Source: Micrococcus endophyticus (GTDB lineage Bacteria; Actinomycetota; Actinomycetes; Actinomycetales; Micrococcaceae). From it: 64,000 nt of DNA. Position numbers and translations under genes: made by a program. Positions within the stretch are counted from its first letter, which is position 1, and each line of letters begins with the position of its first letter. The stretch lies in NCBI RefSeq assembly GCF_014205115.1, contig NZ_JACHMW010000001.1, positions 2,046,001 through 2,110,000 of the forward strand, written 5' to 3'. Under the pieces are notes generated by a model that saw only the letters and a program-made list of their open reading frames with translations, searched no databases and had not been told where the DNA came from. This document shows positions 18,368 through 60,692 of this stretch, one piece after another.

Positions 18368-18479
18368 TCGGTCCCCGCGTGATCCGGGCAACACGGGGTG
18401 GCGGGCGGTGGGCGGTGGGGAGCGCCGCGCGACGAGCGGCGAGCGGCGGGCGGTGGGCGGCGGGCGGCGGGCGGCGGTG

Positions 18480-18542
18480 CGCCAGGGCTGGCAGACGCGC
18501 CGCTGCGAGTTCCACGTAGCGGCGCGTCTGCCAGCCCTGGCG
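18480..18542. repeat. Perfect 25-bp inverted repeat, terminator-like
   Basis: Perfect 25-bp arms (18480-18504 and 18518-18542) with a 13-nt spacer; two further base pairs and a wobble can extend the stem to 28. It lies 39 bp past the stop of the gene at 18581 and is preceded at 18400-18480 by GGCGGGCGGTGGGCGGC low-complexity repeats. It may terminate the leftward transcript, though the arm length exceeds ordinary terminators. Confidence 0.7.
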
Positions 18543-18580
18543 AAAGGGGGGGTGGGGTGAGCGGGCGAGGCGGTGCGCGC

Positions 18581-19065: not shown

Positions 19066-19119
19066 CTCCCGTTTCCCGCAAGGAAGGGGCAGGGGAGGCT
19101 CCCGTTTCCCGCACGAAAG
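19066..19119. repeat. Family A dispersed repeat, 2 copies
   Basis: Two minus-orientation copies of the core TTTCGTGCGGGAAACGGGAG: 19066-19087, degraded at its distal end, and 19096-19119, intact. They fill the gap between the genes at 18581 and 19128 and create a spurious upstream reading frame. Confidence 0.85.
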
Positions 19120-19127
19120 CGGCGGGG

Positions 19128-19289
19128 TCAGCCGACGCGTCGCGCCAGCGGCACCTGCACCGCGAACGCCGCGAGGCCCAGCACCGCCGCCCAGGGCCAC
19201 GCCGTCGTCGTGCCGGGATCCGTGCGGTCGGGGACCTCGTCCGGTGCGCCCCTCGCCCCCTCCTGTGCCGATGCTGTGGGCGGACTCAC
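19128..19289 (-). CDS. Predicted small membrane protein
   Basis: A possible 53-residue frame with GTG start at 19289: an acidic Pro/Thr-rich N-terminus, then one C-terminal membrane helix (TTAWPWAAVLGLAAFAVQVPL) and a basic end ARRVG. It is divergent from the phosphatase gene with a 35-bp gap. Support is the tail-anchored layout and absence of any other gene here; there is no database-like hallmark. Confidence 0.4.
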   Translation of the reverse strand: MSPPTASAQEGARGAPDEVPDRTDPGTTTAWPWAAVLGLAAFAVQVPLARRVG

Positions 19290-19324
19290 GCTAGCGCGTC
19301 CGGGGAAGTTGAGACACTGGGGGC

Positions 19325-19804
19325 ATGCGCATCATGACCGTCTGCCTGGGGAACATCTGCCGCTCGCCCGCCGCCGAGGCGGTGCTGCAGCGCAAGCTCG
19401 CGGAGGCCGGGCTCGCGGACGAGGTGACCGTGACCTCCGCCGGCACCGCCGACTACCACGTGGGCGATCGTCCGCACGAGCTCACCCGCGCGGTCGGCGG
19501 GGAGCTGGGCTACGCGTTCGAGTCCGTGGGCGTCCACCTCGCCGCCGAGCACCTGGACGAGGCTGACCTGGTGCTGGTCATGGACGAGTCGAACCTCGCG
19601 GACGTGCACGCGCTGGCCGCCACGGACGAGCGGCGGGCCAAGGTGCGGATGATGGGCGAGTTCGCCTCGGACGCGGCCACCGCCGGGGTGCTCGAGGTCC
19701 CGGACCCCTACGGGCACCCGCGCGCGCAGTTCGAGGACATGTACCGCCAGCTCGAGGACGCCGCCGACGGGGTGGTCGCAGCGATCCGCGACGGCCGCCT
19801 CTGA
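19325..19804 (+). CDS. Low-molecular-weight protein-tyrosine phosphatase
   Basis: A 159-residue cytosolic phosphatase. The P-loop CX5RS is CLGNICRSPAAEAV at residues 7-20, and the general-acid Asp is in VPDPYGHPRAQFEDMY near residue 120. Both catalytic elements are intact. Family members dephosphorylate tyrosine on kinases of capsule synthesis or on host proteins; no kinase gene is near, so the target is open. A GACACT box 6 nt before the ATG may be a leaderless -10. Confidence 0.94.
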   Translation: MRIMTVCLGNICRSPAAEAVLQRKLAEAGLADEVTVTSAGTADYHVGDRPHELTRAVGGELGYAFESVGVHLAAEHLDEADLVLVMDESNLADVHALAATDERRAKVRMMGEFASDAATAGVLEVPDPYGHPRAQFEDMYRQLEDAADGVVAAIRDGRL

Positions 19805-19842
19805 GCTCCGCCGCCGCGCGCCGGACCGCGCCCCCACCGGCC

Positions 19843-19868
19843 CTTTCGTGCGGGAGACGGGAGGCTCC
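19843..19868. repeat. Family A repeat, single copy carrying a ribosome-binding site
   Basis: One plus-orientation copy (GAAACGGG changed to GAGACGGG) abutting the GTG at 19869. Its GGGAGG lies 4 nt before that GTG, so the repeat supplies the Shine-Dalgarno of the next gene. Confidence 0.8.
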
Positions 19869-20726
19869 GTGGCGCTGACCGGACGCACCGGCCGGTGGAT
19901 CCGCGACGACGGCACGCCCGTCTTCACGAAGGCCCGCGCCGACGCCCCCGCGCACCTCTTCGAGCGCGAGGCCGCGGGCCTGCGCGCCCTCGCGGCGGCC
20001 GGGGCCCGCGTGCCCCGCGTGCTGGGGTGGAGCGAGACCGGCCTGGAGATCGAGTGGATCGACGACGGCGGCCGGCGCACCCCGCAGACGGAGGCCGCGT
20101 TCGGCCGGGAGCTGGCGGGCCTCCACGCGGGGTCGCGCCCGGAGGCCGGCGCGCCGGACCGGTTCGGCTCGCCCGACGACGTCTCGGCCGGCTGGCTCGG
20201 CGCCTGCCCGGTGGACTACACGCCCGCGGACACGTGGGCCGAGTCCTGGGTGGGGCGCCGGATCCTGCCCCTGGCCCGCCGGGCCGCGCGGGCCGGCGTC
20301 GTGCCCGCCTCTGCGAGGGCGGACGCCGAGCGCCTCGCCGAGCTCACCGACGACTTCGGCCCGGACGCCCCCGCCGACCACCCGGGCGCGGCGGTGCTGG
20401 GGCCGGCCGAGCCGTCGTCGCTAGTGCACGGGGACCTGTGGGCCGGGAACCGGCTCGTGGACGCGGACGGGCGGTCCTGGCTGATCGACCCCAGCGCGCA
20501 CCGGGGCCACCGTGAGGCGGACCTGGCGATGATGCGGCTCTTCGGCGGGTTCGGCGAGGAGGCGTTCGCGGCGTACCGGGAGGCGTTCCCGCTCGCCGAC
20601 GGCTGGCGCGAGAGGGTGCTGCCGTACCAGGCGGTCCCCCTGCTGGTGCACGCCGTGCTGTTCGGAGGCGGGTATGGGGAGCAGGCGGCGGCGTCGCTGC
20701 GGGCGGCGGTGCGCCTGGCGTCCTGA
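19869..20726 (+). CDS. Fructosamine kinase family protein
   Basis: A 285-residue kinase of the fructosamine-3-kinase/APH fold, which phosphorylates Amadori products on glycated proteins or free ketosamines as a repair step. Seen: glycine-poor N-lobe with VFTKARADAPAHLFEREAAGLRAL, catalytic loop LVHGDLWAGNRLV and metal-binding DPS in SWLIDPSAHRGHREADLAMM. The GTG at 19869 is used because GGGAGG precedes it and the longer frame translates only repeat DNA (a MRETGGS peptide). It may form an operon with the phosphatase. Confidence 0.9.
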   Translation: MALTGRTGRWIRDDGTPVFTKARADAPAHLFEREAAGLRALAAAGARVPRVLGWSETGLEIEWIDDGGRRTPQTEAAFGRELAGLHAGSRPEAGAPDRFGSPDDVSAGWLGACPVDYTPADTWAESWVGRRILPLARRAARAGVVPASARADAERLAELTDDFGPDAPADHPGAAVLGPAEPSSLVHGDLWAGNRLVDADGRSWLIDPSAHRGHREADLAMMRLFGGFGEEAFAAYREAFPLADGWRERVLPYQAVPLLVHAVLFGGGYGEQAAASLRAAVRLAS

Positions 20727-20753
20727 GCCGGGGCCCGGACCCGGGGGCCGGAA

Positions 20754-20842
20754 GGCTCCCGTTTCCCGCACGAAAGTGCCCGTGGAGGCTCCCGTTTCCC
20801 GCACGAAAGTGCCCGTGGAGCCTCCCGTTTCCCGCGCGAAAA
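20754..20842. repeat. Family A tandem array, 3 copies at 33-bp period
   Basis: Minus-orientation copies at 20754-20776, 20787-20809 and 20820-20842, separated by a conserved 10-bp TGCCCGTGGA-type linker. The array fills the whole gap between two convergent stop codons (20726 and 20845). The third copy has one change (GCGCGAA). Confidence 0.92.
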
Positions 20843-29376: not shown

Positions 29377-29578
29377 GGTCCCTCTGCTCTCCCGGTCGGA
29401 CTGTCGTCGTGGGGTCTCGCCCCACCGGACGGACCGTCCCGTGGAACACCTCTGCGACCCGGTGCCGTGGCGCGCGGGGGCGCCGTGCCCGGGGTCACTG
29501 CCCCACCGTACCGGCCGAGCGGACACGCGAGGCGACCGGGCCGCCGTCGTTCGCCGCCGGTGGACAGTGCCGCGGGGC

Positions 29579-29638
29579 GCGAGGGGGCCCGTCCGCCGCA
29601 GACGCGCGGCGAGGGGGTCCGTCAGCTGTAGACGTGCG
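29579..29638. repeat. Tandem 30-bp duplication at the 3' end of hpt
   Basis: Two adjacent 30-bp units (29579-29608 and 29609-29638) agree at 25 of 30 positions. The right unit contains the last codons and stop of hpt; the left is a diverged non-coding copy just beyond the stop. Confidence 0.6.
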
Positions 29639-36315: not shown

Positions 36316-36374
36316 GAGCTGTCCTGCAGATGGCCGGTATGACGCCGATCCACGGCGCCATACCGGCCATCTGC
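36316..36374. repeat. Family B palindromic element, solitary copy (B1)
   Basis: Begins GAGCTGTCCTGCAGATGGCC and contains 22-bp inverted arms (36326-36347, 36353-36374) with one mismatch and a 5-nt ATCCA loop. It shares the GCTGTCCTGCA-N3-GGCCG-TATGA arm with the two copies at 57 and 58.7 kb. It lies between ppa and the SatD-like gene. No T-run follows. Confidence 0.8.
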
Positions 36375-36422
36375 GTTCCCGCTCGACGTCGGGGCCACTG
36401 AGCCCTGGCAGAATCGGGCACC

Positions 36423-37055
36423 ATGCTCGTGCTCACCATCAACCAGCGGGACACCCTCGACGCCGGGGACCGCGTGGACGCGTTCCTGCGCTCCCTCGGC
36501 GACGCCCCGGGGCTGGCGGGCGCCGTCGCGCTGCCGTTCCAGCGCGCCGTGGGCGACGAGCTGATCGGCGCCGTGACGGACCCGGCCGCCGCGGTGGAGG
36601 TGGCGCTGCGGGCGCTGCGCGAGCGCCGGTGGAACGTGGGGATCGGCGTGGGCGCGCTGCGCGGGGCGGACGGGACGGACGGGGCGCCGTCGTCGGGATC
36701 GCTCGACGACGCGGCCGGCCCCGCCCTCGCCCACGCGCGGCGGGCCGTGGAGGCGGCGGCCGTGTCCACCGCCCGGATCCCGCTGGCCGTGCGCGGCGCC
36801 GACGCGCAGGCCGCGGCGGAGGCCGAGGCCGTGCTGCGGCTCGTGGGGCAGCTGGTGTGGAGCCGCACGGACGCCGAGTGGGCGGTGCTCGACCTGCTCG
36901 TGCCCGGCGTGCGGGGCCAGCAGAAGCCGGCCGCGGACGCCCTCGGCATCACGGCGCAGGCCGTCTCGCAGGCCGTGCAGCGGGCCTACTGGAACGAGGA
37001 GCACGCCTGCCGGCCGGCCGCGGCCCGGCTCCTCGCCCTCGCCGAGGAGGGCTGA
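36423..37055 (+). CDS. SatD-like protein with C-terminal helix-turn-helix
   Basis: A 210-residue protein. The N-terminal half (MLVLTINQRDTLDAGDRVDAFLRSL, PFQRAVGDELIGAVTDPAAAVEVALRAL) matches SatD-family proteins; the C-terminal part (WAVLDLLVPGVRGQQKPAADALGITAQAVSQAVQRAYW) is a helix-turn-helix with clear turn and recognition helix. Probably a DNA-binding regulator. SatD genes often neighbour a membrane protein; a convergent membrane-protein gene follows here. Confidence 0.75.
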   Translation: MLVLTINQRDTLDAGDRVDAFLRSLGDAPGLAGAVALPFQRAVGDELIGAVTDPAAAVEVALRALRERRWNVGIGVGALRGADGTDGAPSSGSLDDAAGPALAHARRAVEAAAVSTARIPLAVRGADAQAAAEAEAVLRLVGQLVWSRTDAEWAVLDLLVPGVRGQQKPAADALGITAQAVSQAVQRAYWNEEHACRPAAARLLALAEEG

Positions 37056-39926: not shown

Positions 39927-40007
39927 CTTTCGGGCGGGAAACAGGAGCCCATCACTTTCGTGCGGGAAACGGGACCCCATCACTTTCGTGCGGGAAACGG
40001 GAGCCTC
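39927..40007. repeat. Family A tandem array, 3 copies at 28-bp period
   Basis: Plus-orientation copies at 39927-39949 (two changes), 39955-39977 and 39983-40007, with CATCAC linkers. They lie between the serS start and the stop of the PKD gene. Confidence 0.9.
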
Positions 40008-43297: not shown

Positions 43298-43373
43298 CTT
43301 TCGTGCGGGAAACGGGAGGCTCCCGTTTCCCGCACGAAAGTGCTCTGCCAGGCTCCCGTTTCCCGCACGAAAA
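43298..43373. repeat. Family A cluster with a 43-bp perfect palindrome
   Basis: Copies at 43298-43318 (plus) and 43320-43340 (minus) form 21-bp perfect arms around one G; a third minus copy lies at 43352-43373. The palindrome starts 9 bp after the lipid kinase stop and lies between convergent genes, so this pair probably works as a bidirectional terminator. Confidence 0.9.
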
Positions 43374-44360: not shown

Positions 44361-44683
44361 TTGACGGTGGGCTCGGCGCCGCCGTCGGCCTCCATGGGCT
44401 TGCCGGCCTCCAGCCATGCGCCGGAGCCGCCGGCCACGTTGATGGCCGTGTAGCCGCGGCCCACCATGAACTCGGCGGCGCGGGCGGAGCGGCCGCCGGT
44501 GCGGCAGATGACGTAGTAGTCGGTGTCCGGGTCCAGCTCCTCGAGGCGGTCCGGCAGCTGGCCGAGCGGCAGGTGCTGCGCGCCGGCGGCGCGGCCCAGG
44601 GTCCACTCGTCGTCCTCGCGGACGTCCAGGATGGCCGCGTCCGCGGGGATCTCGTTCACATCGACGGTCTCGAAAGCGCTCAT
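44357..44683 (-). CDS. Rhodanese-like domain protein
   Basis: A 108-residue single-domain rhodanese (GlpE-like). The active-site loop is YYVICRTGGRSARAAEFM with the catalytic Cys near residue 62; the N-terminal AAILDVREDDEW motif is intact. It transfers sulfane sulfur or binds thiols in the cytosol. A TACGCT box 6 nt before the ATG suggests leaderless transcription; it is coupled to pheA. Confidence 0.92.
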   Translation of the reverse strand: MSAFETVDVNEIPADAAILDVREDDEWTLGRAAGAQHLPLGQLPDRLEELDPDTDYYVICRTGGRSARAAEFMVGRGYTAINVAGGSGAWLEAGKPMEADGGAEPTVK

Positions 44684-52585: not shown

Positions 52586-52721
52586 GTTGTCGTGCGGGAA
52601 ACGGGAACCTGCCGCGCCGTCGTCGCGCGGAAGCCTCCCCTTTCCCACACGAAATTGCCCCCGAAGCCTCCCGTTTCCCACACGAAAGTGCCCCCGAAGC
52701 CTCCCGTTTCCCGCACGAAAG
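52586..52721. repeat. Family A cluster, 4 copies
   Basis: One plus copy (52586-52609) faces three minus copies at 52633, 52666 and 52699, exactly 33 bp apart with TGCCCCCGAA linkers. Copies 52633 and 52666 share the ACACGAA variant. The array fills the gap between convergent pgm and the VOC gene. Confidence 0.92.
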
Positions 52722-53745: not shown

Positions 53746-53808
53746 GTTCCCGTTTCCCGCACGAAAGCGGTGGGGGGCTGGGCGAGGCTCCCGTTTCCCG
53801 CACGAAAG
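53746..53808. repeat. Family A repeat, 2 copies between divergent genes
   Basis: Minus-orientation copies at 53746-53767 and 53787-53808 (41-bp period). This cluster is upstream of both neighbours, so termination cannot be its general purpose. Confidence 0.88.
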
Positions 53809-55453: not shown

Positions 55454-55524
55454 CTTTCGTGCGGGAAACGGGAGGCTCCGTCGGCGTCCCCACCCCCGCT
55501 TTCGTGCGGGAAACGGGAGGCTCC
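55454..55524. repeat. Family A repeat, 2 copies
   Basis: Plus-orientation copies at 55454-55479 and 55499-55524, both with the full GGCTCC end, spaced by 45 bp, 18 bp after the aldehyde dehydrogenase stop. Confidence 0.9.
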
Positions 55525-55616: not shown

Positions 55617-55958
55617 GTGCGACTATCCGCTCCCCCGCGCCGGCCGCGCGTGACCCGGATGGCGGCCCTGACCGCCGTCGTCGTCCTGGGCGTGGCCGGG
55701 TGCACCGGCCCCGAGGGCCGCACCCGCACGACGACGACGGGCGGGCCCGGCACGTCGACGTCCCCGCCGCCGGTGGTCCAGCAGTCCGAGGCGGCCGCGC
55801 ACCCGGCCGACACCCTGCCCCTGGGGGACGAGGCTGCGGTCGCCGCCCTGCGGGAGCTGTTCGACGGGACCGTCCAGGTGACGCCCCCGGGCGGGGCCGA
55901 CGTCGAGATGCGGCTGCGCCGCGCGGACGTGGAGCTGGTGCTGTCAGAGGAGGGGTGA
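55617..55958 (+). CDS. Small predicted lipoprotein
   Basis: A 113-residue protein with a basic N-terminus, hydrophobic stretch and lipobox AVVVLGVAGCTGPEG (Cys about residue 29), a Thr/Pro-rich linker, and a short C-terminal region (AVAALRELFDGTVQVTPPGGADVEMRLRRADVELVLSEEG). Not recognised; probably membrane-anchored on the outer face. GTG start, with GAGAAGAG upstream; a TAGGCT box lies at 55568-55573. Confidence 0.65.
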   Translation: MRLSAPPRRPRVTRMAALTAVVVLGVAGCTGPEGRTRTTTTGGPGTSTSPPPVVQQSEAAAHPADTLPLGDEAAVAALRELFDGTVQVTPPGGADVEMRLRRADVELVLSEEG

Positions 55959-55990
55959 GGGGCGTCGGGCGGGGCGCCTGCCGCCCCGCA

Positions 55991-56047
55991 AGCCTCCCGT
56001 TTCCCGCACGAAAGCGCCCCGGAAGGCCCCCGTTTCCCGCACGAAAG
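55991..56047. repeat. Family A repeat, 2 copies
   Basis: Minus-orientation copies at 55991-56014 and 56025-56047 (about 34-bp period) between convergent lipoprotein and phosphodiesterase genes. Confidence 0.88.
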
Positions 56048-56068
56048 CGCGGGGCGGCGGGCCGGGAG

Positions 56069-56920
56069 TCAGCGCTGGGGCCAGATCCCGCGCGTCGTGA
56101 AGACGTCGGCGAGGACATCCGCCCGGTCGGTCATGATGCCGTCGACGCCGAGGTCGAGGAGGCGGTGCATCTCGTCCGGCTCGTCGATCACCCACACGTG
56201 CACGGGCAGCCCGGCCGCGTGGCAGCGCCGCACGAAGTCCGCGGTGACCACGCGGACGCGGCCGTGGCGCACGGGGACCTGCACGCAGTCGACGTCGAGG
56301 GCGTGGCGGGCCAGCCAGCGCGTGAGCCCCACCGGGCCGAGCGCCACCAGCGCCGCGATGGCGGCGGCCCCGCCCGACGTCGCCACGCGTCCCGGGCCGA
56401 ACGCGCGGTCCTCGTGGCCCAGCGCGGCGAGCGCCCGGCGGAACGCGCGGCGGCGTGAGTCGTGGAACGAGGCGACGAGGACCCGCTCCCACGCCTCGTG
56501 CTCCGCGAGCAGGCGGGCCATGGCAGGGGCCGCGGCGCGGTCCTTGAGGTCCACGTTGAGCCGGGCCTCGGGCAGGGCGGCGAGCAGGTCGGCGAAGCGC
56601 AGCAGCGGCTCCCCGCCGACGTGGACCTCGGTGAGCCCGTTCCACGTGTGCTCCTGAAGGCGGCCGCGGCCGGTGGTCACGCGCTCCAGCGTCTCGTCGT
56701 GGAAGACGACCAGTTCGCCGTCCGACGTCGTGCGCACGTCCAGCTCGAGGTAGGCGAAGCCGGCGTCGTGCGCGGCCTGGAAGGCGGCGAGCGAGTTCTC
56801 CCGCCCGACGTCGGCGCCCCGGTGCGCGAACCCCAGCGGCCAGCCCTCGCGCCCGGGGACGGAGTCGGCGAGGTAGGCGGGGGCGGGGCGGTGCCGGGAC
56901 GACGGCGGACGGCGGGTCAC
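56069..56920 (-). CDS. Glycerophosphodiester phosphodiesterase
   Basis: A 283-residue TIM-barrel enzyme releasing glycerol-3-phosphate from deacylated phospholipids or teichoic acid. Seen: LGFAHRGADVGRENSLAAF (first catalytic His), LELDVRTTSDGELVVFHDETLERVT (metal ligands and second His), LNVDLKD and the C-terminal VWVIDEPDEMHRLLDLGVDGIMTDRADVL. No signal peptide, so probably cytosolic. GTG start. Confidence 0.93.
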   Translation of the reverse strand: MTRRPPSSRHRPAPAYLADSVPGREGWPLGFAHRGADVGRENSLAAFQAAHDAGFAYLELDVRTTSDGELVVFHDETLERVTTGRGRLQEHTWNGLTEVHVGGEPLLRFADLLAALPEARLNVDLKDRAAAPAMARLLAEHEAWERVLVASFHDSRRRAFRRALAALGHEDRAFGPGRVATSGGAAAIAALVALGPVGLTRWLARHALDVDCVQVPVRHGRVRVVTADFVRRCHAAGLPVHVWVIDEPDEMHRLLDLGVDGIMTDRADVLADVFTTRGIWPQR

Positions 56921-57025
56921 GGGGCCAGGGTAGCGGGGGCGGAGCGGGCCGGTGGAGGGGTGGGAGGAGGGTCGGTGGGGTGGTGGGAGGAGGGGTCAGA
57001 GAGTGATGGACGCCGCGGGAGATCC

Positions 57026-57126
57026 CGAGCTGTCCTGCATCTGGCCGTTATGAGGCCCGGAATCGCCCTCATCACGGCCCTTTGCAGGACAGCTCGGACA
57101 CGAAGCGGCCATTTGCAGGACAGCTC
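57026..57126. repeat. Family B palindromic element, left flank copy (B2)
   Basis: Imperfect 30-bp arms (57026-57055 and 57067-57096, four mismatches) with an 11-nt loop, followed by a second copy of the right arm (about 57105-57126). The stretch 57030-57072 is identical over 43 bp to 58692-58734. It precedes the anomalous membrane-protein gene. Confidence 0.88.
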
Positions 57127-57210
57127 CGGCACCATTCGGAGAACGCGCGGACCTTGCGCGCACCGGACGCGAGACGGACGGTTCCCTCGCGATGGCGCAC
57201 GATGGGACGC

Positions 57211-58503
57211 ATGGGGGATGACAACGCACGCATGATCCGACGCTTCCGCAGCAGCTCGACGAGGCGGCCGCTCCACAGGTCCCTGACCCGCCGCGGCAAC
57301 CGATCGAGCAGGAGGCTCCACACTGACGATCGGGTGTCATTGCCTCCGAGTTCCGTCGCAGGGTTGTTCCTAGGACCCTTTTTGGCCACGCATCTCTTCG
57401 CTTGGGGACTCTTCGCTTTTGTCTATCTGATCGCACACCCGGGAGGCGGTTCCGTCTTCACCGCCTCCATGTGGAGATTCACCACCGATGTGGCGGTGAA
57501 CACCGGTCTGGCCATGGAGGATTCGCTCCTGGCCCTGACCTCCACGGGCGTGACCGTGACGGTCGCCTTGTACATTCCGGTGGCAGCCGGGCAGTTGGTC
57601 AGCCCCCGAGGCGGCGGTGAAACCCAGCGTCGCCTCGGAAGCCTTGCTCTCGCGACGTCGGGTGTGTTCGCGGGTATCACGACGGGGGCGTACATCGCAT
57701 CGATGACCCACGGGGCCCACCCGGCATCGATGATTCCCGAGCTCCTCCTCCAAGGGCTCATGATCGCCCTGTCGCTTCAGCTGGGAACGCATCTCTTCGA
57801 CGATCGGGAAGAACTGCCATCGCGCTTGGAGGACGACGAACGCAGACTCGAGATGCAGCTCAGCGACGCCGCCCGGAACTCGCTGTCAGACGACATCCAA
57901 GGAAAGCTGGGCGGTGACTTCACGCTCCCTTCGATGAACCAGTGGGCGAAGGCCGCCCGCACGCTGACCCTCCGACGAACCCTGCGTCTGATCATCTGGG
58001 TCTTCGGTTACCTACTGGCCGGTGCATTCCTCGGCGCGTTGACGTTCGCGTGCACCTCACTGGTGCTGGAGCGCGAATGGGATGCCAGGATCGTCGCCTT
58101 GGGCGCGGTCATCGGGGTCTACGCGTATGTTGCCAGTGGGATGATCACCTCCCACGACCAGTCCACTCCAGTCTTGAGCTGGCTGGTACGAGCCGCGGGA
58201 GCCACCGTCTGGCTCCTGTTGCTCGCGAGTGGTCTTGTGCTCCTGGCCCCATCGTCCTCGCAAGGCAGCGTTTCCTTGGGCATCGCGGTGCTCGGAGTCA
58301 TCCATGTCCTGTGGCGGCGAAGGTCCCCGGGCGAACAGGGTCTGGGGCTCTCACCCTTCATGCTCTCGCATCGCGTGAACACAACCCTCGCTGAAGAAGC
58401 ACTCACCAGCGTGTGGTCCAGGCAGCTTCACGCCGGCATCCTGCCGCGTCCCCTTCTCGGGACGACCTGCCGGACTTCGCCCTTGAGGGATGCTGCTCGC
58501 TGA
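57211..58503 (+). CDS. Anomalous lower-GC polytopic membrane protein
   Basis: A 430-residue protein, not recognised. After a very basic 45-residue N-terminus it has four membrane helices (about 55-80, 100-127, 143-163, 172-195), a charged cytosolic segment of about 80 residues (DDREELPSRLEDDERRLEMQLSDAA...), then four more helices (about 265-295, 302-322, 328-355, 360-378). Codon use differs sharply from neighbours, with many A/T-ending codons. It is flanked by family B direct repeats. Three ATGs (57202, 57211, 57232) compete as start and none has a strong ribosome-binding site. Confidence 0.65.
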   Translation: MGDDNARMIRRFRSSSTRRPLHRSLTRRGNRSSRRLHTDDRVSLPPSSVAGLFLGPFLATHLFAWGLFAFVYLIAHPGGGSVFTASMWRFTTDVAVNTGLAMEDSLLALTSTGVTVTVALYIPVAAGQLVSPRGGGETQRRLGSLALATSGVFAGITTGAYIASMTHGAHPASMIPELLLQGLMIALSLQLGTHLFDDREELPSRLEDDERRLEMQLSDAARNSLSDDIQGKLGGDFTLPSMNQWAKAARTLTLRRTLRLIIWVFGYLLAGAFLGALTFACTSLVLEREWDARIVALGAVIGVYAYVASGMITSHDQSTPVLSWLVRAAGATVWLLLLASGLVLLAPSSSQGSVSLGIAVLGVIHVLWRRRSPGEQGLGLSPFMLSHRVNTTLAEEALTSVWSRQLHAGILPRPLLGTTCRTSPLRDAAR

Positions 58504-58893
58504 GCACTCCTCTCCCCCGCAGCGTGGACCGCTTCCCGGATCAGGAAGGACCAGCCACAGCTCTCGAAGGACGAGCTCCTTCGGGCGACGCTGGAGCACT
58601 ACGGCCAGAAGCGCTTGACCGAACAGATTCGCGCCCATCTGAACGCCGTCCATGCACTCATGGACTCGATAAGCGGCGGGACGCGGTAACCCTGTCCTGC
58701 ATCTGGCCGTTATGAGGCCCGGAATCGCCCTCATAACGACACTCTGCAGGACAGCTCGGACAGGGAACGGCCATCTGCAGGACAGCTCGGCCTGGGGGCC
58801 GCGAAGAGCCCGCGCCTAGACTGGCCGCGACCCCTCGGCCCACCCCCACGCACCCACACCCCACACCCCACACCCACCCCAGGAGCCCCCGCC
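58504..58893 (+). other. Region after the anomalous gene: in-frame coding remnant and repeat B3
   Basis: Directly after the TGA at 58501 the same frame stays open for 61 codons to TAA at 58687. Its second half (LSKDELLRATLEHYGQKRLT, then EQIRAHLNAVHALMDSI) reads like real protein, but no ATG, GTG or usable TTG starts it. Repeat B3 follows, then about 100 bp of CACCCCACACCC-type low-complexity DNA before the next gene. Confidence 0.5.
58692..58789. repeat. Family B palindromic element, right flank copy (B3)
   Basis: Same orientation as B2 and 1662 bp from it. Identical for the first 43 bp, then similar through a right arm and a second right-arm copy ending GCAGGACAGCTCG. Together the two copies bracket the anomalous gene as direct repeats. 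Confidence 0.88.
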
Positions 58894-59994
58894 GTGCCTC
58901 GCGTCTCATCCCGCCCGCACACGGGCCGCGACCGCCTGGTCTGGGTGGACGTCGCGCGCGGGATCGCGCTGGTCTCCATGTTCGTCGCGCACGTGGCGCC
59001 CTCGGGCGGCCCGGCGGGCGTCCTGAACCTCTCCGAGCACCTGACTGCGGCGCTGTTCGCGGCCCTCGTGGGCGTCTCAGCGCGCCTGGAGGTGCAGGGC
59101 CTCGGCGTCGGCCGCGCCCTCGTGCGCGCGATGGTCCGCGCCGCCGCCCTGCTCGGCGCCGCCTGGCTCACCGCCCTCTTCGACGCGGCGGTCGTGGACG
59201 TGCTCACCCACCTGGCCGTCATCACCGTCCTCATGGCGCTCCTCGCGGCCCTGCCCTTGGCCGTGCACCTCGTGCTCGCGCTCCTCGCCGGCGGCGGCGG
59301 GATCCTGCTGACGGCGGCCGGCACGCTCGCCGTCGCCGACGCCCTCGCCCCGGCCGCGCGCGCCCTCGGCCTGGACCCCGCGGAGCTGGTCCCGGCGGTC
59401 GCCGGCTTCCTCACCGCCGGCCCGTACCGCCTCACCGCGTTCCTCGCGTGGGCGCTGCTCGGCGCGGTCCTCGTGCGCACGGTCCACGTCACGACGACGG
59501 CGCTCCCCCGTTCCGGCCGCCTCGTCGGCCTGGGCTGGGGCGTCGGCGGGGTGGTCCTGGCCGGCCTGGTGATCCTGCTGTCCCGGGTGCAGACCGGGGC
59601 CGCGCCCGTGCCCTACGCGGGCACCGCCGCCGAGATCCTCGTGGACACGGGCCTGGTGCTCGGCGTGCTGGGCCTGTGCGCCGCCGTCGTGCCGTCCCGG
59701 CCCTCGCCGGCCACGGACCTGCTGGCCGTGCCGGGCTCCATGACCCTCTCCGTGTACGTGGCGCACCAGGCCTACCTGGGCTGGGTGCTCACGGCCGGCC
59801 CCGGCCCGTGGGTCGACGGGCGCGGCGCGGACGACACCTGGTTCAACCTCGCCTCGCTCCTGGCCGGCGGGATCCTGCTGCCGCTGCTGTGGCGGGGCCT
59901 CGTGCGGGTCCGCCCCTTCCGCGCCGGCCCGCTCGAGGGGATCGTCCGCCTCGTCACCGACCCGATCGGGCGCCGCTCGAGGGGAGAGCACTGA
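58894..59994 (+). CDS. YeiB/DUF1624-like (heparan-alpha-glucosaminide acetyltransferase-related) membrane protein
   Basis: A 366-residue protein with about ten membrane helices. The N-terminal LVWVDVARGIALVSMFVAHVAP is the signature of the DUF1624/acyltransferase-like clan, and the C-terminal SMTLSVYVAHQAYLGWVLTAG fits DUF418. Family members may move acyl groups across the membrane; no substrate is known. GTG start with GGAG 8 nt upstream. It may be co-transcribed with the NYN gene, although that has its own box. Confidence 0.8.
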   Translation: MPRVSSRPHTGRDRLVWVDVARGIALVSMFVAHVAPSGGPAGVLNLSEHLTAALFAALVGVSARLEVQGLGVGRALVRAMVRAAALLGAAWLTALFDAAVVDVLTHLAVITVLMALLAALPLAVHLVLALLAGGGGILLTAAGTLAVADALAPAARALGLDPAELVPAVAGFLTAGPYRLTAFLAWALLGAVLVRTVHVTTTALPRSGRLVGLGWGVGGVVLAGLVILLSRVQTGAAPVPYAGTAAEILVDTGLVLGVLGLCAAVVPSRPSPATDLLAVPGSMTLSVYVAHQAYLGWVLTAGPGPWVDGRGADDTWFNLASLLAGGILLPLLWRGLVRVRPFRAGPLEGIVRLVTDPIGRRSRGEH

Positions 59995-60143: not shown

Positions 60144-60692
60144 GTGAGCGAATCCACCACGTACCTGCTGGTCGACGGCGAGAACATCGACGCCACCCTC
60201 GGCACCTCCATCCTGCAGCGCCGTCCCCAGCCGGACGAGCGCCCGCGGTGGAACCGCCTCCTGTCCTTCATGGGCGAGCACTGGGACCAGCCGGTCAAGG
60301 GCCTGTTCTTCCTGGCCATCGACGGTGACATCCCCGTGCCCTTCGTGCAGGCGCTCACCGCGATCGGCTACAAGCCGATCATGCTGCGCGGCGCCGGCAA
60401 GGTCGTGGACATCGGCATCCAGAAGACGATGGAGGCCCTGCAGGAGCGGGACGACGACGTCGTCCTCGTCAGCCACGACGCCGACTTCGCCCCCCAGCTC
60501 ACGGACCTCGCCGCCACCCCGGACCGCCGGACCGCGATCATCGGCTTCGAGGAGTTCCTCTCCCACGAGCTGCGCCGGATCCCGGACGTCGAGTTCTTCG
60601 ACCTCGAGTACGGCGTGGGCTCGTTCGACACGCCGCTGCGCCGCCTGCGCGTCATCGACATCGACGAGTTCGACCCGCTCGAGTTCCTCTGA
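60144..60692 (+). CDS. NYN domain (PIN-like) putative ribonuclease
   Basis: A 182-residue protein with the NYN/PIN-like fold: acidic sites in TTYLLVDGENIDATLG, FFLAIDGDIPVPFVQAL, KVVDIGIQKTMEAL and VVLVSHDADFAPQLTDLA. These four Asp-containing positions match the metal site of NYN nucleases. It probably acts on RNA in the cytosol. The C-terminus (LRRLRVIDIDEFDPLEFL) is conserved in actinobacterial members. Confidence 0.9.
   Translation: MSESTTYLLVDGENIDATLGTSILQRRPQPDERPRWNRLLSFMGEHWDQPVKGLFFLAIDGDIPVPFVQALTAIGYKPIMLRGAGKVVDIGIQKTMEALQERDDDVVLVSHDADFAPQLTDLAATPDRRTAIIGFEEFLSHELRRIPDVEFFDLEYGVGSFDTPLRRLRVIDIDEFDPLEFL

Follow-up and report, generated by a model that had tools for sequence, protein, structure and literature searches.

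A foreign-looking membrane-protein gene between two directly repeated composite palindromes in Micrococcus endophyticus, and its possible place among palindrome-ended units

Introduction

Integron gene cassettes carry palindromic sites that adjoin single genes, and the hairpins of IS200/IS605 elements are much shorter than the palindromes considered in this study. Those hairpins are recognised at both ends of the element. REP palindromes are usually present in more than 100 copies per genome. One report describes rayt genes as always flanked by two inverted REPs, with which they co-evolve (PMC2817692).

This study examined a locus of Micrococcus endophyticus within a stretch of 64,000 nucleotides (contig NZ_JACHMW010000001.1, positions 2,046,001 to 2,110,000), hereafter the window. 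An earlier note, made by inspection of the window, had singled out a gene of unusual composition between two direct repeats, B2 and B3, and had read the layout as a cassette gained by recombination between the repeats or carried with them.

Materials and methods

The genome containing the window (G000) is a single contig of 2.71 Mb, and it was compared with genomes of other species of the same genus (G001 to G010). Relatives of a nuclease-like gene found in the genus were sought by tblastn with the genus proteins, which gave three Arthrobacter, three Tsukamurella and one Nonomuraea loci; one further DUF559 gene, taken from a control stretch, was included. To score bracketing, palindromes up to 350 bp upstream of a gene were compared in direct orientation with those downstream, and the best match was taken, with gene limits that were approximate for G007, L174, L175 and L180.

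Results and discussion

B2 (57027-57126, forward strand) is a composite element. Its 69-bp palindrome (57027-57095) is joined by a third half-site that lies 31 bp past the second and ends at 57126. B3 (58689-58788, forward strand) repeats the composite form, with its third half-site again 31 bp past the second, and lacks the palindrome's first three bases, which are different. The two are direct repeats with 92% identity over 97 nt and starts 1662 bp apart, so that the orientation and distance given in the earlier note are borne out by alignment; the 43 identical bp that it mentioned are those with which the alignment begins. The internal palindromes it had described are long, with arms that are 87% complementary in B2 (57025-57055 and 57067-57097) and 81% complementary in B3 (58692-58717 and 58729-58754). 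As single strands, B2 and B3 fold at -28 kcal/mol (z -8.7 against shuffles) and -20.9 kcal/mol (z -7.1), respectively. A 17-mer core, allowing up to three mismatches, was matched seven times in the window against 0.35 expected, which excludes chance as the source of its recurrence; one of the seven matches, at 44547, is probably fortuitous. A single palindrome of the same family, B1 (36316-36384, forward strand), lies between ppa (Pfam PF00719) and a gene at 36423-37055 with a sub-threshold match to KorA.

The locus resembles the REP/RAYT system in having a gene between two palindromes, palindrome sequences that diverge and scattered copies without a gene (PMC2817692). It differs in that B-type palindromes are longer, mostly 55-73 bp, and show no GT(A/G)G head by eye; at least nine copies were found here among the candidates scored. 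Moreover, B2 and B3 are direct whereas REPs are inverted, and the nuclease-associated pairs of the genus and its relatives are of mixed orientation. A Y1 (HUH) transposase (PF01797) was matched in none of the 11 genus genomes by a search that was positive in 5 of 14 control genomes; assignment to RAYT was rejected because no Y1 gene was found in these 11 genomes, and a Y1 transposase (TnpA) is likewise what the locus lacks in comparison with IS200/IS605. By analogy, B2/B3 and the nuclease-associated units may work like REP/RAYT without belonging to it. The direct palindrome-gene-palindrome order, with palindromic sites beside single genes, also recalls an integron-like gene cassette with attC-like sites. 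This explanation has a negligible chance of being correct and was rejected, since the best integrase match in G000 reached 82.4 bits against a cut-off of 265 (14 of 14 control genomes likewise gave sub-threshold matches only) and no attC core was visible by eye.

The interval between B2 and B3 had been described as holding a single gene. It contains one full gene (57211-58503, forward strand, 430 codons) and, at 58546-58689 on the forward strand, a stub of 47 codons from the 3' end of another gene. The GC content at third codon positions (GC3) is 0.77 in the full gene and 0.97-0.98 in the five neighbouring genes compared with it. The codon usage of the full gene lies 1.9 to 3.2 times farther from the pooled neighbours than that of each neighbour, with each neighbour itself included in the pool; the lower GC and atypical codon use noticed previously are thereby confirmed. 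The encoded protein, also correctly called unrecognised, matched no family in Pfam, NCBIfam, PADLOC or PHROGs, and its one match in the PDB (E 0.59) was not used. Hydropathy peaks, merged by hand, predict about 7-8 membrane segments, which makes the eight helices proposed earlier plausible. The homologue in G002 shares 92% amino acid identity, and the dN/dS ratio between the two is 0.48 in the gene's frame against 1.0-1.2 in two other frames, which suggests that the gene is probably real and mildly constrained.

Of the 59 genomes searched, two had the membrane-protein gene, G000 itself and G002, which makes one of 58 relatives. In a draw of 396 genomes of the phylum, the protein had, apart from the match in its own genome, five matches that were weak and partial (E 7.6e-4 to 9e-3) and were set aside as noise; no homologue was found in plasmids, genome_contigs (searched with a peptide pattern) or viral_contigs. 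The gene is foreign by its composition and patchily distributed. No relative of the stub was found, its single weak PHROG match having an E-value of 0.013.

On the left, the interval adjoins a glycerophosphodiester phosphodiesterase (GDPD) gene (56069-56920, reverse strand; Pfam PF03009), and on the right a gene for an HGSNAT-like/acyltransferase-like membrane enzyme (58894-59994, forward strand; Pfam PF07786, just above the cut-off). In G008 and G010 the GDPD gene adjoins the acyltransferase gene, and neither the membrane-protein gene nor a palindrome is found there. An empty site with a single B copy had been suggested as a check; these sites carry none. As they belong to other species and are devoid of B, they do not tell whether two B copies recombined or a complete unit was inserted. 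Approximately 1.26 kb of extra DNA separates GDPD from the gene matching window 60159-60692 in G007 (L042, 7401-8664) and G003 (L044, 6754-8017), and is absent in G009, which makes the GDPD junction a variable site.

The left junction of G002 is organised as in G000, with GDPD, B and the membrane-protein gene in succession. This left B is the only one beside the gene in G002, where a restriction-modification island follows on the right. Homology to the window ends at 58544, just before the stub, and beyond it lie a gene for an SNF2-like helicase, a DUF4391 gene and genes for a type III methyltransferase, an AlbA/Schlafen-type protein, a type III restriction enzyme and a Swt1-HEPN protein, followed by a second GDPD copy 80% identical to that of the window. 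On the sequence fetched from G002 (L037, 1-14730), this type III restriction-modification/SNF2-like helicase/AlbA-Schlafen/Swt1-HEPN island has a GDPD copy at each end; nothing in it matched the stub. Window positions 55826-58544 are 92.7% identical to G002, whereas the aligned segments leftward reach 75-88%, and the GDPD genes differ at 12 of about 822 aligned bases, on which grounds G002 probably acquired a G000-like tract. Over the 97 positions shared by the three composite copies, private differences number seven in B2, four in the G002 copy and one in B3. The G002 left copy differs from B3 at 5 positions and from B2 at 11, though B2 is its positional equivalent, and because of this closeness to B3 the B2/B3 duplication probably predates the split between G000 and the G002 donor. 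The short G000 interval may be what is left of a longer one, and it is just as possible that the right side was exchanged in the G002 lineage.

The G002 arrangement bears on an explanation that we consider unlikely while granting it real weight, namely that the B elements are ordinary intergenic palindromes, such as terminators or protein-binding hairpins, that the foreign gene arrived by homologous recombination after DNA uptake, and that the bracket is incidental. A gene lying in a G000-like tract beside an 80%-identical second GDPD copy fits the pattern of additive recombination, and several B copies stand, by reading, at or near gene ends. Conversely, B2 lies between divergent genes and not at a 3' end, and visual inspection of the remaining G000 copies showed none with the composite form that B2 and B3, alike at 92%, share.

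The 2.7-Mb G000 genome holds at least nine B-type palindrome loci, 150 of 7111 candidates having been scored by the model, and half-site patterns with up to three mismatches revealed no further palindrome in it. Weaker relatives, many with different arms, occur in eight of the ten other genus genomes, where counts are lower bounds because 150 candidates per genome were scored. All 11 genus genomes had matches to the covariance model at E <= 1, and 10 of them still did at E <= 0.001, the best for G005 being 0.0023; some of the weak matches are plain GC-rich hairpins; among the matches listed, that of G002 lies only beside the membrane-protein gene. An alignment of ten sequences (nine from G000, one from G002) has 82.7% of its cells paired. 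Both partners had changed in 10 pairs, compared with 6.3 +- 1.2 after shuffling that ignores kinship, a covariation signal that a DNA palindrome yields in the same way as an RNA hairpin. No known RNA family reached its gathering score in window 35800-59300. In searches for the half-site elsewhere, unrelated genomes in genome_contigs gave 14 single exact matches, about the number estimated for chance, viral_contigs gave none, phages gave no match, and plasmids gave only matches of 26% coverage (E 0.9). The palindrome arms differ from genome to genome, and a 31-bp spacing of half-sites is common to B2, B3 and the arrays of G004. From these comparisons, the B family appears genus-wide, with a fast-changing half-site that differs between species. 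In G004, all 12 distinct B-like matches, among the matches listed, fall within 1.67-2.11 Mb, or 19% of the chromosome.

The position of B1 varies in content across the genus. The gap after ppa holds a palindrome with arms unlike those of B1 in G004 and GC-rich hairpins of 56-58 nt, taken for terminators, in G007 and G010, while the palindrome scan found none in G002.

Another B pair of G000 encloses cstA (Pfam CstA), whose neighbours are a HIT gene and a class IV aminotransferase gene. As cstA was matched in all 11 genus genomes, in G005 weakly and in part, its reading as a foreign cassette was rejected. Strong matches to the B model at cstA occur in G000 only among 10 cstA loci examined; the G002 locus has two weak ones (E 2.7e-4 and 4.1e-3), and in G003 and G006 one flank carries a palindrome of a different type. 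Both the enclosure of a genus-wide gene and these palindromes of another type favour the explanation by ordinary intergenic palindromes. The pair at cstA also bears on the cassette proposed for the membrane-protein gene. The foreign and patchy character of the gene, the empty junction in G008 and G010 and the bracketing of other genes agree with it, but given the pair at cstA and the lone left B of G002 the proposal is right only in part, and travel of the gene as a B-ended cassette stays conjectural.

The direct copies that surround foreign DNA would also suit a non-autonomous element that ends in B2 and B3 and owes its movement to an undetected DDE transposase. We consider this highly improbable, given that the long frames between the repeats are the membrane-protein gene, the stub and overlapping frames only, and that no B half-sites beyond the two known pairs frame an interval the size of a transposase gene.

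The best two B-model loci outside G000 and G002, with 150 candidates per genome scored, form a pair in G009 (E 4.1e-11 and 7.5e-9) that encloses a 334-codon gene between ftsH and hpt. A nuclease-like gene occupies this position in G002, G004, G006, G007 and G009 and is missing from G000 and G010, and palindromes flank it on both sides in these five of the seven genomes, none being present in the two without the gene. Both palindromes were found by automatic scan in G002, G007 and G009; the scan found one side in G006, where the second is a weak model match (E 0.22), and neither in G004, whose flanks, tandem half-sites at 31 bp, were recognised by half-site pattern and reading. The arms around this gene vary between the genomes. 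In the window, the gap between the hpt-type phosphoribosyltransferase gene and ftsH (29377-29624; both genes assigned by Pfam, ftsH through Peptidase_M41) has neither the gene nor a palindrome and is the natural empty site of the unit bracketed in the five relatives. The joint absence of gene and palindromes in two of seven genomes tells against ordinary intergenic palindromes.

These bracketed genes resemble AbiEi_4, DUF559 and REase_MTES_1575 proteins through Pfam matches, for which nothing pertinent on bracketing palindromes or mobility was found in the open-licence literature. The matches are weak and below the cut-off in the G004, G006 and G009 proteins (AbiEi_4, DUF559 or MTES_1575), and the G002 protein has no Pfam match. 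DUF559 exceeds the cut-off in Tsukamurella L177 and L182 and falls just below it in Arthrobacter L176, and the AbiEi_4 matches are N-terminal, above the cut-off in Tsukamurella L182 only. Neither the window nor five further stretches taken from the surroundings of B copies yielded an AbiEi/DUF559-like gene, and the B2/B3 interval holds the orphan membrane-protein gene and none of this type.

The bracketing score reached at most 0.48, with a median of 0, in 133 control coding sequences, which come from outside the genus, in two stretches of Tsukamurella and one of Arthrobacter (142 were annotated; the DUF559 gene, five end-cut and three short hypothetical ones were omitted). B2/B3 scored 0.93, and 9 of 13 nuclease-type loci from the genus, Arthrobacter, Tsukamurella and Nonomuraea exceeded 0.48. 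When G009 and G006, found through the palindrome model, and G004, reached by way of a palindrome nearby, were excluded, 7 of the 10 loci not chosen by palindrome scored above all 133 controls (Fisher 5.7e-10, with the control maximum as threshold and with palindrome thresholds and a bracketing score of our choosing). L174 fell below this threshold and looks bracketed by eye, Tsukamurella L178 has inverted flanks only, and no bracket was found at Nonomuraea L180 or around two short Bacillota DUF559 genes. A stricter scan, in which 18 of 22 positions had to be paired on both sides, retained 4 of the 13 loci (G002, G007, L175 and L177) and missed the other nine as well as B2/B3; it returned no pair from the 150 kb of control sequence and no matched pair from 165 kb of the genus, in 11 stretches retrieved for reasons other than palindromes. 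Among 16 chosen pairs, direct orientation was the better in 11, comprising all six without a nuclease gene and five of the ten with one, the other five nuclease pairs being inverted or near a tie; three L080 pairs (another family, two better inverted), a weak L136 pair and the G004 nuclease arrays were left out of this count.

The palindromes might instead be operators for AbiEi-type proteins near their own promoter, with the 31-bp phasing serving co-operative binding and no mobility involved, a possibility that we rate as improbable. AbiEi antitoxins autoregulate, the N-terminal AbiEi_4 matches (above the cut-off in L182 only) agree with such a role, and a half-site spacing of 31 bp amounts to about three turns. 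Operators near a promoter fit poorly with the same arms also lying downstream of the nuclease-like gene, with B-type arms at unrelated loci and with a B2/B3 pair around a gene whose product showed no known domain.

Palindrome pairs enclose other cargo in the genus. An Rce1-like gene is bracketed in this way, as is a weak AbiEii match with a helix-turn-helix gene (G001 included); G004 adds a weak match to metallophosphoesterases and a gene of 145 codons. The suggestion that B elements might be found around different cargo is thus corroborated by B-like palindromes bracketing other single genes elsewhere in the genus; since these loci were fetched for their palindromes, they carry no information on frequency.

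Taken together, we lean, on a nearly even balance, towards reading B2, the membrane-protein gene and B3 as a palindrome-ended unit that resembles REP/RAYT, with a nuclease-like protein in place of the Y1 transposase. In this reading B2 and B3 are two copies of the same composite palindrome. It belongs to a family present across the genus, the members of which bracket single accessory genes, most consistently the AbiEi/DUF559 (MTES_1575)-like nuclease gene. The B2-gene-B3 unit would have been inserted between GDPD and the acyltransferase gene, and it might be the leftover of a larger island whose interior was deleted at 58544/58545. The nuclease-like protein, supplied in trans from its own bracketed unit, would bind half-sites in extruded or single-stranded hairpins, and nicking or joining at these hairpins would allow palindromes, sometimes with a gene between two of them, to be copied or moved. 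Several observations weigh against the palindrome-ended unit: the window and the five other B stretches contain no nuclease-like gene; a B pair also stands at cstA, and G002 has one B beside the membrane-protein gene; the strict scan kept 4 of 13 loci and missed B2/B3, and nuclease pairs are of mixed orientation; L180 and the two Bacillota DUF559 genes are unbracketed, and L178 has inverted flanks only; the genus Pfam matches lie below the cut-off, with none for the G002 protein.

A broader proposal is offered tentatively, with the balance tilting somewhat against it. It holds that a widespread, so far undescribed class of mobile units exists in Actinomycetota, in which a PD-(D/E)XK-like (AbiEi/DUF559/MTES_1575) gene would lie between two long palindromes, recognising their arms and co-evolving with them. 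Such units would scatter solo palindromes and carry other single genes, among them the membrane protein, the Rce1-like protease and an AbiE-like pair. REP-type palindromes are common in bacteria, and their proposed Y1 mover was not found in the 11 genus genomes; a nuclease-like gene with matched palindromes in three Actinomycetota genera, with arms that are different at each locus, would represent a testable second solution. It could explain single foreign genes set into core-gene junctions without a visible transposase.

Other palindromes and repeats were observed alongside the B family. A G001 contig (L136, 1-11310) carries several palindrome pairs of differing arm types, one nested in another, around several genes, and one of these pairs, 97% identical, encloses the weak AbiEii match and the helix-turn-helix gene. 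Three palindromes within 3.2 kb at L080 (8053-11231), with arms around GGCGACTTGTCGGGGGT, represent another family, and a further one, with arms like CGCCAGGGCTGGCAGACGCGCCGC, was seen in two copies in G000 (window 18478-18544 and L076, 10582-10654). A second repeat, TTTCCCGCACGAAA, was matched 21 times in the window with up to one mismatch, against 0 expected, at 19105-20841, 39928-39997, 43299-43372, 52588-52720, 53753-53807, 55455-55513 and 56000-56046. Its sites often occur in tandem at approximately 28-33 bp and as inverted pairs, a build similar to that of the B half-sites, and they are denser in the window.
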